This document shows positions 208 through 40,580 of a stretch of 54,360 nucleotides of DNA, one piece after another. Positions within the stretch are counted from its first letter, which is position 1, and each line of letters opens with the position of its first letter. The stretch comes from a bacterium (GTDB lineage: Bacteria > Patescibacteriota > Patescibacteriia > S139-126). The DNA is taken from the NCBI GenBank assembly GCA_030666865.1, contig DAOUWZ010000005.1, positions 1-54,360 of the forward strand. The letters run 5' to 3'. A model generated the notes under the pieces. It was given only the letters and a program-made list of their open reading frames with translations. It searched no databases and had not been told where the DNA came from. Position numbers and translations under genes: made by a program.

Positions 208-3078
208 ATGCCGAAGGGGAAAACTAAAAAAAAGACAATAAAAAAGGCTGTCTTGAAAAAAGGAACCACAAGTAAGCCAAAAACCAAAAAAGCAGGCTCT
301 TTGAATTCAAGGGGTTGTATTAAGGTTATGAAAAAGAAAACAGCAAAAAAATCTATTACCAAGAAAAAAAGAATTGTAAAAAAATCTGTTATAAAAAATG
401 AAAAAAAGATTGTTCATAAAAAGATCGCTCAAAAAAGAGATAAAATTGTTTTATTCGACGATATAAATGTGGCTACTATTAAGGCTAGACAGGATGAACA
501 TGTTATAGAAAATAGTATTGAGGAAAATGAAAATAATATGGTGATAACAAATGATGTATTAAGTCTAGATCAAGAAAGTCAGTCAAAACAGTTAAATATA
601 AAAATAAGTAATTTAAATACAAAATCTCCTCATTTAGTTGACTTGAAAAAGCGCAGGATTGTTACTTATATAGACCAGGAAAAGGATAGGCCAAAGACTT
701 TAGAAGATAGGTTGGCTAGTTTTGAAGATAAATTTTATAAAACCAAAACAAATTTTATTACTCCTGAGGCAGTTAAATATGCCAGAAAAAATAGACAAAG
801 GAAGACAGGAAAAATAAAGAGAATATTTTTAGTAATAAAAGGAAATATTTCTAATTTTTTTGAAAATCGAATTTCCAAGGTAGGTATTTGGGGAGATGAA
901 TTGGTAACTAATTATTTAGAACAAAAATCTAACAGGGGAACAGAGTCTGACTTATCATCACAAATAATTATAGAACAAGTAAGAAAAAATAAGATTAAGC
1001 GTAAGCACAGTAAATTTTTTTCTTTTCCTCATCCAGTCAGGTGGACATTTAGTAGCGAGTTGAGAGGATCTTTATTTTTGTTTTTAATTTTGGCAATAGT
1101 ATTAGTTTCACCACTTAAGGCATATACTTTTTATGAAAAGGTAAAGAATGAAAAATCGCAAGTTTTAGGAGTATCGTCAACTGTTTATAAAGATTTTTCC
1201 AATGGCGTAGATGCTTTGTCACGATTGAATTTTTCTGAAGCAACAAACAATTTTACTTCTGCTAGTGAAAATTTATTGTCAGTCAGACAAGTTTTAAATG
1301 AATATCCAGCTTTTTTGATGTCGGCAGCTAAAAGTTTGCCTAAGGTAGGAAGCCATGTGTCAGCTGGTGATATTTTAATTGATGTTGGAAATAACATTGC
1401 TAATGCTGGCGCTTTGATGAGTCAGTTATTTGCCGAGGTTTTAACTGAAGATGATAAATTAACAAGCGATAGATTGGTTGAACTTAAAACAGGATTTCAG
1501 GAATTATCAGTTATATTCAAAAATACCAGTAATTTACTGATTAAAATTGATGAGCAGGTGATTCCTGAGGAATATCAGGAAAAAATTAGCTTGTTAAAAC
1601 AATGGATGCCACTATCTAGTAGCATAATTGATAATATAGTGGAAGTTCTTGATATAAGTATTATTTTATTGGGTCATGATCAGCCACAGAGGTATTTGAT
1701 AGTATTTCAAAATTCAAATGAATTAAGGCCGACCGGTGGCTTTATTGGAAGTTTTGCCGAAATTGATGTAGATAAGGCTCAAGTAACAAATATAATCATA
1801 CCAACTGGGGGAATATATGATTTGCAAGGTGATTTAGAGGTTCTGGTAGCCGCTCCAAAGCCACTTCATATGTTGAATGCTAATTGGCAGATTCAAGATT
1901 CAAATTGGTGGTTTGATTTTCCCACTAGTGCTAAAAAAATTCTGTGGTTTTATGAAAAATCTGGCGGACCTACTGTTGATGGTTTAATCGCTGTTAATTC
2001 AAATATTCTTTCCAGTTTAATATCTATTACTGGTCCGATTTATCTTGCCAATTTTGATATAACTCTTGATGAGAATAATATTATAAATGAAATACAAAAA
2101 GAAGTAGAGTTTAATTATGATAAAGAAAATAATGAACCGAAAAAAATAATCTCTGAATTGATGCCAATTATGATAGAAAAACTTCAGAAGTTATCTGGTA
2201 ATCAATTTATGGAAATATTTACGGTCTTTAATTCTGCTTTAACATCAAAGGATATACAGATATATTATCAAAATGATGAGATGCAAAAGAAATTGAAAGA
2301 ATTAGCTTGGACTGGGGATGTAAAATATACCAAGCAGGACTATTTAGCTGTTGTGAATACCAATATTGGCGGAGGCAAGGCTGATAATAAAATTAATCAG
2401 CAAACTCATTTGCAAACTGTTATTAGTGAAGATGGCAGTATTCGGAATAAATTGAAAATCAGGTATGATTATACTGGAGCTTTAGGTGAATTATTTATTG
2501 AACCAGAGTATAATAATTATTTACGAGTTTATGTTCCGCTTGGCAGTAGGATGATTACAACAAACGGATTTTATGTACCGGCTAGTTCAGAGTTTAATAG
2601 TCCGCGAGAAGGATATGAAATTGATGAGTATTTGCACGAAGTAGAAAAATTACCTATAGTTGAGGAAAGTACTAATACCAGGATTACTGAAGAATTTGGT
2701 AAAACTGTTTTTGGAAATTGGGTTAAATTAATTCCCGGTGAGACCAAAGAGGTTTATATAGAGTATGAATTGCCGTTTAAAGTAACTTTCAAAGATACTA
2801 AAGATAAAAATATTATTATTGAATATTTTGATAAGCTTATTGAATATATTGGCATATCATTGCCAGAGGAAAAACAAGTGGCTACTTATACCGCTATGTG
2901 GCAAAAGCAGTCAGGGCAAGTTGCGCCATTTATAACCCATGAATTAAATTATTCCAACAATTGGGATGTAGCTTCTAGTCCGAGTTTATATGATAAAATT
3001 GCCAGGCAAGAAAATAAGGTTTATTATCAGACTGAACTTGATAGAGATATTTTTTGGGGTGTTATTTTGAGTAAATAG
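208..3078 (+). CDS. DUF4012-like membrane protein with long Lys-rich N-terminal tail
   Basis: 956 aa ORF; K-rich tail, TM segment (GSLFLFLILAIVLVSPL), motif NSNELRPTGGFIGSFAEI typical of DUF4012 proteins. Confidence 0.8.
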   Translation: MPKGKTKKKTIKKAVLKKGTTSKPKTKKAGSLNSRGCIKVMKKKTAKKSITKKKRIVKKSVIKNEKKIVHKKIAQKRDKIVLFDDINVATIKARQDEHVIENSIEENENNMVITNDVLSLDQESQSKQLNIKISNLNTKSPHLVDLKKRRIVTYIDQEKDRPKTLEDRLASFEDKFYKTKTNFITPEAVKYARKNRQRKTGKIKRIFLVIKGNISNFFENRISKVGIWGDELVTNYLEQKSNRGTESDLSSQIIIEQVRKNKIKRKHSKFFSFPHPVRWTFSSELRGSLFLFLILAIVLVSPLKAYTFYEKVKNEKSQVLGVSSTVYKDFSNGVDALSRLNFSEATNNFTSASENLLSVRQVLNEYPAFLMSAAKSLPKVGSHVSAGDILIDVGNNIANAGALMSQLFAEVLTEDDKLTSDRLVELKTGFQELSVIFKNTSNLLIKIDEQVIPEEYQEKISLLKQWMPLSSSIIDNIVEVLDISIILLGHDQPQRYLIVFQNSNELRPTGGFIGSFAEIDVDKAQVTNIIIPTGGIYDLQGDLEVLVAAPKPLHMLNANWQIQDSNWWFDFPTSAKKILWFYEKSGGPTVDGLIAVNSNILSSLISITGPIYLANFDITLDENNIINEIQKEVEFNYDKENNEPKKIISELMPIMIEKLQKLSGNQFMEIFTVFNSALTSKDIQIYYQNDEMQKKLKELAWTGDVKYTKQDYLAVVNTNIGGGKADNKINQQTHLQTVISEDGSIRNKLKIRYDYTGALGELFIEPEYNNYLRVYVPLGSRMITTNGFYVPASSEFNSPREGYEIDEYLHEVEKLPIVEESTNTRITEEFGKTVFGNWVKLIPGETKEVYIEYELPFKVTFKDTKDKNIIIEYFDKLIEYIGISLPEEKQVATYTAMWQKQSGQVAPFITHELNYSNNWDVASSPSLYDKIARQENKVYYQTELDRDIFWGVILSK

Positions 3079-3117
3079 ATTTTAGAATCTAGAATAATAA
3101 GAATTTTTATTTAAACC

Positions 3118-3146
3118 GTAGTGACAGAGCACTGCTCTGTCACTAC
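3118..3146. repeat. 29-bp palindrome GTAGTGACAGAGCA-C-TGCTCTGTCACTAC
   Basis: Perfect 14-bp arms; same element at 40482-40510 with a different central base. Confidence 0.9.
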
Positions 3147-3220
3147 ACAATTTATCATAATCAAAAATATAGTAATTATCTAATATTAGCCAAAAAGCTG
3201 ATATTTTTTGATGTCAGGCC

Positions 3221-3248
3221 TTGACAAATTCTATAAAACCTGTATAAT
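3221..3248 (+). promoter_or_regulatory. Sigma70-type promoter TTGACA-16 bp-TATAAT
   Basis: TTGACA 3221-3226, TATAAT 3243-3248; drives the ORF-poor region 3255-4081. Confidence 0.8.
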
Positions 3249-3254
3249 AGATTG

Positions 3255-4081
3255 TTAAACAATTTAACTTTTTGGAGAGAGTTAAAAAGAACAAGCTCCT
3301 CCGGAAAAGGGAGTTTTTTGAAAATATAAATTAGCTGGATTTATTGGAGGGAAAAAGGTGAGTACTAAGGTATGACCCTTTATAAATAATATTATTTAAG
3401 CTTATTATTTGGTGTAAACTAGATATCTGCCTAAATATATTATTTGTTTAATATCCTATTACAGGATCACTTGAACATTTTCCCTCAAATAAATCTAGTT
3501 AATATAAACTTGACGAGGCTGAATGCCTCGCCTATGCGTAATTTTTGAATATCTTATTAATGCGTAGCTGAGGCATTCAGCCTCAGTATAAAGTAAAGGA
3601 TAGAAGAAGATATTGGGGAGAGAGTGACTGAAGAGCTTTAAATAATAATATTGGCTTGTTTCAGCTCGCTCCCAAATACCTTCTTCTATCTCACCTATTA
3701 AATCCTCATTCATGCTAATCTATTGATTGATAAAATTGATACATTAGCTCCTTTCCTTATAGGGCGTTTTCTTAGTAATCTAAGTCAGACGCCTTATAAG
3801 GAGAGGAGAGGATTTACTTAACAAAATTAAGTAAATCATATTTTAAAAATAAAATTTTCAAAAAATACTGATGGCAAATATCCGATAAACAATAATTTTC
3901 AAATAATAGATTAGGAATAATTTGCCCTCAGTAATCTGGGTTTTCAGGCTCGAGGCTAGCCGGTTGCGCTTCAGCATAGCTGTAGCAAAATCTCTCTCCT
4001 CCAGCCGGCCATGCAATTCTAGAGCCTGAAGCCCAGATTACTGAGTAAAAGTAACAAAGTCGCATTGTGCGGCTTTTTTTT
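3255..4081 (+). ncRNA. Candidate large structured ncRNA (~830 nt)
   Basis: Consensus promoter upstream, terminator hairpin + T-run at 4058-4081, no + strand ORF in the track, at least seven long complementary helices (listed in findings). Confidence 0.75.
4058..4081 (+). terminator. Intrinsic terminator agtcgc-attgt-gcggct + T8
   Basis: Hairpin followed by T-run. Confidence 0.8.
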
Positions 4082-4111
4082 GTTTACATAATGTTAAATA
4101 TCTACTGTGTC

Positions 4112-4131
4112 ATTCCTGCGAAGGCAGGAAT
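4112..4131. repeat. attcctgc-gaag-gcaggaat palindromic repeat
   Basis: Inverted repeat; half-copy gcaggaatgac at window start (1-11). Confidence 0.6.
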
Positions 4132-4170
4132 CTAGAAAATAAAAAATAAAAATGAAGAGTAAAATTTTTA

Positions 4171-4194
4171 GGTCGCATTGTGCGACCTTTTTTG
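4171..4194 (+). terminator. Terminator-like hairpin ggtcgcattgtgcgacctttttt
   Basis: Perfect stem + T-run; resembles the hairpin at 4058-4081. Confidence 0.65.
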
Positions 4195-4257
4195 TAATTT
4201 TAAATTTGTATTTTAGTACTTTTTAAAATATCAGAATTATGGTAGAATAATTTTACA

Positions 4258-5856
4258 ATGTTAAAGAAAATTTGGTTCAAATTGAATAATACTGTCACTG
4301 GCGGAGCAATAATAATTGCTTTTTTTTCTGTATTTTCAAAAATAGTCGGGTTATTTCGAGAAAGAATTTTGGCTGCCAATTTTTCTGGTGACAAGATAGA
4401 TGTTTTGGATGCTTATTATGCTGCTTTTAAATTGCCTGATTTGGTATTTAACACTTTAGTGCTTGGGGCGCTGGCTTCCGCTTTTATTCCAGTATTTATA
4501 AAATATTTAAAAAAGAATAAAGAGGAGGCTTTTTTGATCTCCAACTCTATTTTAAATTTGTTACTATTGCTAGTTGGCGGACTGACTATTATTTTTATTT
4601 TTATTGCGCCTTTGGTTATGCATTTAGTAGTACCAGGATTTGATGGAGATAAATTTGATATGACTGTCTCGCTTACTAGGATAATGTTTATATCAATAAT
4701 ATTTTTTACAGTTTCAAATGTTTTTTCCGGGGTACTAAATTCATTTAAAAAGTTTTTAACCTTTTCTTTAGCGCCAATTTTTTATAATTTAGGAATAATA
4801 TTTGGCATCGTATTTTTTACCAAATGGATGGGAGTATCTGGTATTGCTTGGGGTGTGGTACTTGGCGCTTTGCTACATTTACTGATTCAGTTGCCAGAAA
4901 TTTTGAAAACAGGTTGGCGGTATCGGTTACAATTAAACCTTAAACATAAAGGAGTAAGAAAAATTTTAAAATTGATGTTACCGAGAACTTTTGGGTTGGC
5001 AGTAGGGCAGATAAATCAATTAGTAATTGTTATTATAGCCTCTACTTTAGCAGTTGGTAGTGTGGCTTATTTCAACTTAGCTAATAATTTACAGTCTTTT
5101 CCGATTTCAATATTTGGCGTCTCTATAGCTCTGGCTTGTTTTCCGGCGTTTTCGCAGGCTTTTGCGGAAAATGATACTGAAAAGTTTAAACAAAGTTTTA
5201 GTGTAAATTTTCGTCGGATATTATATTTAATTGTGCCATTTTCGATTTTTCTTTTGTTATTAAGAGCGCAAGTAGTTAGGTTGGTTTTAGGTAGTGGTTC
5301 ATTTTCCTGGCACGATACAATTCAGACTGCTCAGACTTTGGGATTTTTTTCTTTATCGTTGTTTGCTCAAAGTTTGATACCGTTGATAGCTAGATCATTT
5401 TATGCTTTGGAAGATACGAAAACCCCGGTAATAATAAGCGTGATGGCAATGATAGTGAATATTGTTGGAGCAATATTGTTGGGGAAATATTTTGGAATAT
5501 TTGGCGTGGCAATTGCATTTTCTATAGCCACTATTATTCAAATGGTATTATTACTTACTATTTTAAGAGGACGGGTGGGCTATCTTGATGATAAAAGATT
5601 AGCTTGGTCGTCAATAAAGATCGGCTGCTTGAGTTTATTGGCTGGATTGGTCGGATATGTAGTTATGCGGATAGTAGCGCCAATGGTTGATATGCAAACA
5701 TTTTTTGGCATTTTGATTCAGACAGTAACAACCGCATTTATTGGCGGTGGAGTTTATATTTTCTTGAGTATTTTATTCAATTTTGAGGAAGTAGAAATAT
5801 TGCAGAAATATTTAGGGAAATATTCTAAAGTGTTAGCAAATAAAAAAAGTAAATAA
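4258..5856 (+). CDS. murJ: Lipid II flippase MurJ (MviN family)
   Basis: 532 aa polytopic protein; FSKIVGLFRERILAANFSG and LVLGALASAFIPVF typical of MurJ. Confidence 0.92.
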   Translation: MLKKIWFKLNNTVTGGAIIIAFFSVFSKIVGLFRERILAANFSGDKIDVLDAYYAAFKLPDLVFNTLVLGALASAFIPVFIKYLKKNKEEAFLISNSILNLLLLLVGGLTIIFIFIAPLVMHLVVPGFDGDKFDMTVSLTRIMFISIIFFTVSNVFSGVLNSFKKFLTFSLAPIFYNLGIIFGIVFFTKWMGVSGIAWGVVLGALLHLLIQLPEILKTGWRYRLQLNLKHKGVRKILKLMLPRTFGLAVGQINQLVIVIIASTLAVGSVAYFNLANNLQSFPISIFGVSIALACFPAFSQAFAENDTEKFKQSFSVNFRRILYLIVPFSIFLLLLRAQVVRLVLGSGSFSWHDTIQTAQTLGFFSLSLFAQSLIPLIARSFYALEDTKTPVIISVMAMIVNIVGAILLGKYFGIFGVAIAFSIATIIQMVLLLTILRGRVGYLDDKRLAWSSIKIGCLSLLAGLVGYVVMRIVAPMVDMQTFFGILIQTVTTAFIGGGVYIFLSILFNFEEVEILQKYLGKYSKVLANKKSK

Positions 5857-6065
5857 TGACTAATATAGATATTAAAAAAATACGTAATTTTTGTATTATC
5901 GCGCATATCGACCACCCCGGCACTAAAGCTCGAAAGTATTTGCAAGAGTTAATTAAAATTTATTGCTCGGAAACGCCTGCGGCTCAGTTATTAAATTATT
6001 TATATTTTTACAGAAGCTTAGTGCGGGGCGCGACTCAGATAATTAATGGATATTATGGATATTAA
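5856..6065 (+). pseudogene. Duplicated lepA 5' end joined to a short insertion
   Basis: KIRNFCIIAHIDH shared with LepA N-terminus; the duplicated DNA lies at 5869-5913 and 6061-6105. Confidence 0.75.
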
Positions 6066-20050: not shown

Positions 20051-20334
20051 GACCTGTTGATAACTCTACTTCGCAAGGTCTGTGGTTAAGCTAGAATGGA
20101 CTAAAGGTCGAAATAAGGGTAAAATTACCTTACAAATTGAATATTCTGGTATAACCAGAGTGCCTAAACCTTATTTATAAGGCATGGCGCTGAAATCCAA
20201 CCATGGTAGAGAACTCCTCGTTCAAGTCTTCCATGGTTGGTCGTATTCCGAAAGGAATATGGGTGTCGCAAGATGCCAGACTTGGCGGGGAGCTTTGTGT
20301 ATTCAAAGTCAACCTGTTACCAAGGTTGGTTTTT
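20051..20334 (+). ncRNA. Candidate structured RNA (~285 nt), GNRA-capped hairpins and intrinsic terminator
   Basis: Hairpins at 20146-20158, 20169-20182, 20197-20240, 20244-20259 (GAAA loop), 20262-20277 (GCAA loop), 20293-20308; terminator 20310-20334. Confidence 0.65.
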
Positions 20335-20360
20335 TGTTTATAATTTATTTTAAAAATAAT

Positions 20361-20747
20361 ATGGAAAATAAAAAAGAAAATATTAGCAAGAAAAATATTA
20401 TTACTTTATTAGTCGTTATCATTATTATCTTGATAAGTGGATTCTTTGTATATCCAGAATATTCAAGATATAGATTTCAAAAAGAAATAGAGCATCAACA
20501 AGCAAGACAGGAGGCTTCAGAAAAGAGCATGCTTATAACAGAAATAGATTTATTGCAGATGGATCTCGGTGAGTTTGAATATACATCTGAAAGACAAAAA
20601 CAAATGAGTTTAGAAGAATTGAGAAATGCTAAACAAGAACTTGAATGGAAAATGGAATTTAATACTCTCAAAAGAAAATGTGGTGATGATTGTCCTGAGA
20701 ACTTAACCTGGGGTAATTTTCTTTTAAGTAAGGTACTTGCAGATTAA
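20361..20747 (+). CDS. Small membrane-anchored hypothetical protein
   Basis: Track ORF 20184 runs through the RNA candidate; ATG 20361 (MENKKENISKKNIITLLVVIIIILISGFFVYPEY) is more likely. Confidence 0.55.
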   Translation: MENKKENISKKNIITLLVVIIIILISGFFVYPEYSRYRFQKEIEHQQARQEASEKSMLITEIDLLQMDLGEFEYTSERQKQMSLEELRNAKQELEWKMEFNTLKRKCGDDCPENLTWGNFLLSKVLAD

Positions 20748-40383: not shown

Positions 40384-40481
40384 TTTAGCTCCTTTCTGAT
40401 TGATTTAATGAACAAATTAATTTAGAAAATATAGCATTTTATTATTGGGATGTCAATATTAGTATTAAAAATAAGATAGGT

Positions 40482-40510
40482 GTAGTGACAGAGCATTGCT
40501 CTGTCACTAC
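40482..40510. repeat. Second copy of the 29-bp palindrome GTAGTGACAGAGCA-T-TGCTCTGTCACTAC
   Basis: Identical to 3118-3146 except the central base. Confidence 0.9.
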
Positions 40511-40580
40511 GATCTAAAGATGTTATACATAAAAATGATATTGTATTTTATAGTAAAATTTACTATACTCTAAACTAGAG

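Follow-up and report, generated by a model that had tools for sequence, protein, structure and literature searches.

A candidate new family of large structured RNAs in Paceibacteria, with conserved ends and a variable middle

The window, by which we mean the whole stretch of 54,360 nt that was analysed, contains near its start an intergenic region (3079-4257) separating a DUF4012-type gene (208-3078) from a murJ-type gene (4258-5856). These and the other gene names used here (lepA and so on) are readings of translations, made either in a sequence-only reading that preceded this work or by ourselves. Within the intergenic region lies a candidate RNA gene of about 830 nt (3255-4081, + strand) with its own promoter and terminator. 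The earlier proposal of an independently transcribed noncoding RNA at this place relied on three outer features, all of which are borne out: the promoter is exact, with TTGACA at 3221-3226 and TATAAT at 3243-3248, and is the top-scoring site within 3000-4400; the terminator, previously placed at 4058-4081, is present as a hairpin at 4056-4076 plus a T-run; and the + strand has no ORF of at least 40 aa between 3078 and 4258. In the window, then, the unit has the promoter, the terminator and the lack of an ORF by which a stand-alone large structured RNA is recognized. Further along, a short ORF (5856-6065) repeats the start of the lepA-like protein (IKKIRNFCIIAHIDHPGTK...), whose full gene follows at 6046, and is a partial duplication of the start of that gene. 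The features of the locus, all on the + strand, are as follows.

3221-3248, +, sigma-70 type promoter TTGACA-16-TATAAT, 12/12 consensus match
3263-3286, +, 5' hairpin SL1 (3263-3271/3278-3286 or 3263-3269/3280-3286)
3274-3281, +, donor word GGAGAGAG in or beside the SL1 loop, from the sequence
3296-3319, +, SL2, a terminator-like hairpin (CTCC 3296-3299 / GGAG 3310-3313, then TTTTTT 3314-3319)
3314-3332, +, 5' arm of the closing helix, partner 3847-3865 (repeat finder, fold)
3322-3511, +, domain M1, stem 3322-3355/3478-3511 with inner hairpins (fold; compensatory changes against G001)
3446-3476, +, conserved GTTTAATATCCT..AGGATCACTTGAAC hairpin inside M1 (fold, G001 comparison)
3515-3584, +, dispersed palindromic repeat, REP-like, inserted and not core (helix 3515-3537/3562-3584; copies in genome, no G001 counterpart)
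3599-3690, +, hairpin M2 (helix 3599-3624/3665-3690; fold, with similar hairpins in G001 and G002)
3617-3624, +, second copy of GGAGAGAG, in the M2 stem, from the sequence
3748-3808, +, hairpin M3 (helix 3748-3767/3789-3808; fold, kept with changes in G001)
3811-3837, +, hairpin adjoining M3 (3811-3820/3828-3837; fold)
3847-3865, +, 3' arm of the closing helix (repeat finder, fold)
3873-3926, +, hairpin 3873-3879/3920-3926 (fold, G001 comparison)
3927-4045, +, conserved 3' domain: long stem (3927-3943/4029-4045), inner stem (3943-3954/4019-4030) and apical hairpin (covariation, six genomes)
3987-4001, +, motif AAAAUCUCUCUCCUC, unpaired in the MFE structure and complementary to GGAGAGAG (fold; exact recurrence across the class)
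4056-4081, +, intrinsic terminator ending the RNA (hairpin 4056-4076 and T-run)
4170-4193, +, second terminator between the RNA and murJ, a near-copy of the first, from the sequence

The + strand of 3255-4081 folds with an MFE of -310 kcal/mol, compared with -181 +/- 6.7 for 20 dinucleotide shuffles (z -19.2), and the fold of the minus strand is weaker (-267, z -13.5), which agrees with the earlier observation that the differences between helix arms are mostly G-U wobbles suited to a + strand RNA. The seven helices originally listed were all recovered (7/7) by a repeat finder and/or the fold, and the structure could be extended in two places: the first helix of M1 is longer than had been given (3322-3355/3478-3511), and a long-range helix that had been overlooked (3314-3332/3847-3865), found by both the repeat finder and the fold, closes the central part. 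SL2 is weak in the window and stronger in relatives, where its loop carries CUCUCC, and M3-like hairpins were seen by eye in genomes G004 and G002.

The sequence-only reading had looked to homologous DUF4012-murJ intergenic regions for comparison, and such regions were found; far from being absent in relatives, the RNA is present in five related genomes, in four of them beside DUF4012, murJ or lepA and in one relocated. In G001, from another genus of the same family, it occupies the equivalent place with its own TTGACA..TATAAT promoter and terminator, and in G002 it sits with a promoter at a different locus. A covariance model of the 3' domain (R1), built from three sequences and run on 390 genomes of the class with E-values that are rough, found three further members: G004, in which the RNA follows a DUF4012-type gene and precedes a lepA-like gene in the same order; G314, from another family, in which it lies before murJ; and G338, from the family of G314, in which it lies between a DUF4012-type gene and murJ. 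A pattern scan of genome contigs gave 15 matches besides G001 and G002, none of which fits the model (0), and a phylum-wide model search gave one weak match outside the class, in G532, which carries the exact motif described below. Near-perfect promoters stand at the equivalent position in G001, G002, G004 and G314, so that a promoter is evident in four of the five homologues. Judged from the neighbour orders and promoters of these five, synteny and, in four of them, the promoter are retained over large distances, and the RNA gene, present once in each genome, has mostly been passed down without leaving its place next to DUF4012, murJ or lepA.

Since the RNA is directly upstream of murJ in the window, G001, G314 and G338, it could be read as a cis-regulatory leader of that gene. 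This we consider very unlikely, and rejected, because RNA and murJ are apart in G002, where the RNA lies far from murJ and the region upstream of murJ has no such RNA; moreover two terminators stand between RNA and murJ in the window, in G004 the RNA stands before a lepA-like gene and no murJ was found, and other members follow lepA-, recA-, greA- or cinA-like genes, as judged by their translations. The RNA does lie beside murJ and DUF4012 here; the conserved modules extend far past murJ neighbours.

Support for the structure itself comes from covariation, in an approximation of the check that had been suggested (R-scape itself was not used). In a three-sequence alignment of the 3' domain built without structure, 13 of 43 pairs have a double-sided change. 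Across six genomes, in an alignment that was fitted to the model and so leans towards it, 29 of 42 pairs have a double-sided compensatory change and 92.3% of cells are paired, compared with 35-44% for slid partners; none of the shuffles equals these values. The full RNA, with the repeat at 3515-3584 removed, was compared with its G001 orthologue at 60% identity, giving a consensus energy of -139.8 kcal/mol versus -43.2 +/- 5.0 kcal/mol for column-shuffled alignments (z -19) and 33 compensatory pairs, with 1 of 130 pairs broken or gapped; because the best folds of the shuffled alignments themselves contain 17 compensatory pairs on average and up to 30, the energy is stronger evidence than this count taken by itself. 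Compensatory change, a further mark of a stand-alone large structured RNA, is therefore present, and as far as sequence comparison can tell it shows a secondary structure under selection.

One of the seven helices must be set apart from this structure. The segment 3515-3584 matches six other sites in the genome (contigs C43, C49, C15, C9, C32 and C23) and nothing corresponds to it in the G001 orthologue, from which it follows that this helix is an insertion, mobile-repeat-like and tolerated by the RNA, and not core structure; all the listed helices are present, but this one does not belong to the core. Two more dispersed repeats, the palindromes 3103-3150 and 4108-4140, lie outside the RNA: the former is a near-perfect palindrome that recurs at 40480-40518 (GTAGTGACAGAGCA/TGCTCTGTCACTAC) and on several contigs of the genome, the latter a CATTCCTGCGAAGGCAGGAATC repeat shared with other genomes of the class, and both are REP-like. 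With three dispersed palindromic repeats in and around it, the locus might be thought a cluster of REP or MITE palindromes that merely resembles an RNA gene. That holds for 3515-3584 only, the one dispersed element inside the RNA; no further copies of the remaining helices turned up in the genome, and in other genera these helices keep their synteny, covary and come with a conserved promoter. For the core this explanation was rejected on covariation and is in our judgement highly improbable.

Comparison with catalogued RNAs returned no known family. An Rfam 15 scan, as the sequence-only reading had advised, gave no family reaching cut-off in the window, the loci of 40 relatives gave only tRNAs at gathering score, a permissive search of 3080-4257 (E up to 10) gave chance-like matches only, and six relatives searched at E up to 0.5 gave nothing convincing. 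The earlier view that RNase P and tmRNA signatures are missing here agrees with their location elsewhere: the RNase P RNA match of the genome (RF00010) is C20:6840-7151 and the tmRNA match over cut-off (RF00023) is C52:1039-1428, neither being the candidate RNA. That the candidate is a diverged housekeeping RNA (RNase P, tmRNA, SRP or 6S) could still be argued from the small bacterial SRP RNA model (RF00169), which has no match in the genome (G000, rated 99.6% complete; control genomes match in 11 of 14). With RNase P and tmRNA on other contigs, and SRP, 6S and the like not suggested at E up to 10 in the candidate region nor at E up to 0.5 in the six relatives, this was rejected and is hardly credible. 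A second structured RNA does occur in the same window, a LOOT RNA (RF03000, 82 bits) at 20161-20277 overlapping the start of the ORF 20184-20747; it is likewise structured but differs from the candidate in length (about 120 nt), sequence and fold, and is unrelated.

A resemblance to the OLE, GOLLD and ROOL classes had also been suggested, and this stands as a matter of style only, for a match to any of their Rfam models is absent: the OLE, ROOL, GOLLD and HEARO models fall short of the gathering cut-off in the window, in 3080-4257 (E<=10) and in the 40 relatives' loci. OLE RNA is a dimer kept together in part by a kissing loop (PMC12286853), and like OLE the candidate is a chromosomal RNA of similar size with many helices and conserved unpaired motifs; it differs in having no Rfam match, in occurring in other bacteria and in its nearly invariant AAAAUCUCUCUCCUC/GGAGAGAG pair, and no gene for an OLE partner was noticed among its neighbours. 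ROOL and GOLLD are large RNAs whose assembly proceeds via kissing loops (PMC12286853). The candidate differs from them in the lack of an Rfam match, in that a tRNA or prophage neighbourhood was not seen at the locus, in its synteny with chromosomal housekeeping genes and in having optional ORFs between its end modules. With HEARO and OMEGA RNAs some relatives of the candidate share the joining of a structured RNA and an ORF as one unit, but their ORFs, by eye for small membrane proteins or CxxC proteins, vary by lineage and are absent in the branch of the window, and there is again no Rfam match. A phage origin was tried and dropped: the longer pattern had no match among viral contigs, and the 15-mer alone matched many, as expected by chance in a large collection, none of them scoring well with the structure model. 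Among open-licence papers, none was found that describes an RNA of this kind in these bacteria.

The 3' domain carries a 15-nt motif, AAAAUCUCUCUCCUC or AAAAACUCUCUCCUC (fifth letter U or A). Of 381 genomes of the class, 44 have an exact copy, a count that rests on the exact 15-mer and so leaves out divergent members and may include a few chance matches; the reversed control gave 1 match. The motif is nearly always single per genome. At 31 of the 44 loci it adjoins a hairpin and is enclosed by a stem, versus 16% of random positions. The window escapes this simple hairpin and stem test owing to an interruption in its apical hairpin, but the fold does show the hairpin, and the 3' domain there has AAAAWCUCUCUCCUC beside a hairpin and closed by a stem, as in the family at large.

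The 5' end carries the complement of this motif, GGAGAGAG. A promoter followed by GGAGAGAG within about 60 nt was found at 17 of the 44 loci, compared with an average of 0.36 loci for 55 permuted words, although two control words much like GGAGAGAG also score (5 and 4 loci); in the window the word follows the promoter at 3274-3281. In family f49 it lies in the loop CUGGAGAGAGU, with closing arms that differ in sequence between genera, and over all members single SL1 hairpins are only modestly above chance. In G002 the exact GGAGAGAG is not near the 5' end, one copy being at M2, and G235, G008, G050 and G062 have the 3' element but no GGAGAGAG within about 2-4 kb. Among members whose 5' end was located, most have a second, terminator-like hairpin next, with a CUCUCC-type word in its loop; the paired pattern GGAGAGAG-N30-60-TCTCTCC is too unspecific to test the 5' module alone.

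Between these ends the unit varies from about 110 nt (G052) to about 4.9 kb (G245). The middle is structured RNA in the window, G001, G002, G314, G151 and G075, while by eye it consists of lineage-differing ORFs in others, encoding membrane proteins (G145, G373, G016) or CxxC proteins (G308, G343, G154), and in G004 it includes a 122-aa ORF. The description of the RNA as noncoding accordingly holds for the branch of the window but not for distant members, whose end modules flank ORFs, which suggests that some family members are mRNAs. As the end modules enclose ORFs in distant Paceibacteria, they are probably the functional core, with a lineage-specific middle. Two members have unusual forms. 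The smallest, at locus L128 (G052, 2138-2310), consists of a promoter, GAGGAGAGAG and a 3' domain doubling as terminator, in about 110 nt; at locus L106 (G151) two nearly identical hairpins in tandem, containing AAGGAGAGAGTAGCC or AAGGGAGAGAGTAGCC, stand at -525 and -408 before the motif and are an internal duplication of an M2-like hairpin.

The complementarity of two nearly invariant words leads us to infer that 5' GGAGAGAG would dock onto the 3' AAAAUCUCUCUCCUC loop through about 8 bp, as a long-range kissing interaction or pseudoknot. Such docking would join the two ends of the RNA, either within one molecule or between copies, with the intervening helices as the body of a compact particle that may serve as an RNA or RNA-protein scaffold, or as a regulator; the ends together would make up the core, and the middle a body that differs by lineage. 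This end-to-end loop pairing is likely, although the GGAGAGAG:CUCUCUCC pairing is one of complementarity between nearly invariant words, with no covariation. By analogy with OLE, ROOL and GOLLD, whose homo-oligomers use kissing loops (PMC12286853), formation of an oligomer is a reasonable idea.

A two-partner switch (the SL2 loop versus the 3' domain) or action in trans is possible as well, and leads to a different account of the whole, in which the 5' module (SL1 with GGAGAGAG, then SL2) is a short RNA or attenuator, trans-acting or multi-state. In such a riboregulator GGAGAGAG would alternate between a near partner in SL2 and a far partner in the 3' domain, and would govern whether transcription reads on into the long RNA or ORF, or would act on mRNAs with GGAGAGAG-type ribosome sites. 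This account is favoured by the SL2 hairpins, which carry a CUCUCC-type word ahead of a U-run in most members whose 5' end was located, by the SL2 of G245, standing 4.9 kb before the 3' element, and by a few genes of the window genome with taaGGAGAGAG before ATG. Against it, SL2 is weak in the window, the 3' element is made hundreds to thousands of bases later, too late for termination of the same transcript, and GGAGAGAG is only mildly enriched genome-wide (24 versus 7 for the reversed word), with several copies in apparent tRNA genes or inside genes. Targeting of mRNAs across the genome was rejected for its few ribosome-site matches, and the riboregulator as a whole we regard as unlikely.

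The preferred explanation is that 3255-4081 is a stand-alone structured RNA gene whose ends dock to give a scaffold or regulator particle, and to this explanation taken whole we give a probability of roughly 60%. Weighing against it are the genomes that lack GGAGAGAG near the 5' end or the 3' element, the modest excess of SL1 hairpins, the ORF-bearing relatives and the two control words that also score. The earlier idea of a novel large multi-helix RNA is supported by the fold (z -19), the covariation and the lack of an Rfam match; most of the computational checks suggested for it were run or approximated, and none contradicted it. The sequences argue that it is a real, new family of large structured RNA that is not OLE, ROOL or GOLLD. 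The kind, a large structured RNA, is familiar, and it is the family and its architecture of conserved ends around a replaceable middle that appear new. With its conserved 5' and 3' parts recurring in many related bacteria, it looks like a new, widespread class. We put forward more tentatively, as a conjecture that may well prove wrong, the fuller description of a Paceibacteria (Patescibacteria) class with end modules paired through GGAGAGAG/CUCUCUCC, a middle of about 0.1 to 5 kb of ornate RNA or ORFs, and an ornate form that makes a compact or multimeric particle.

To our knowledge few classes of large structured bacterial RNA are known, and most of these are without known function. The nearly invariant 15-nt loop and its complementary 5' word provide simple, testable handles on the present one, and its range of sizes, starting at about 110 nt in G052 and going up to 830 nt and beyond, with an ORF in some forms and none in others, makes a natural series for studying the role of the core. 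If the fuller description is true, a compact or multimeric RNA particle would exist in cells with otherwise very reduced genomes. The retention of the RNA at fixed places in genomes of about 1 Mb, belonging to presumed symbionts, suggests that it has an important job.
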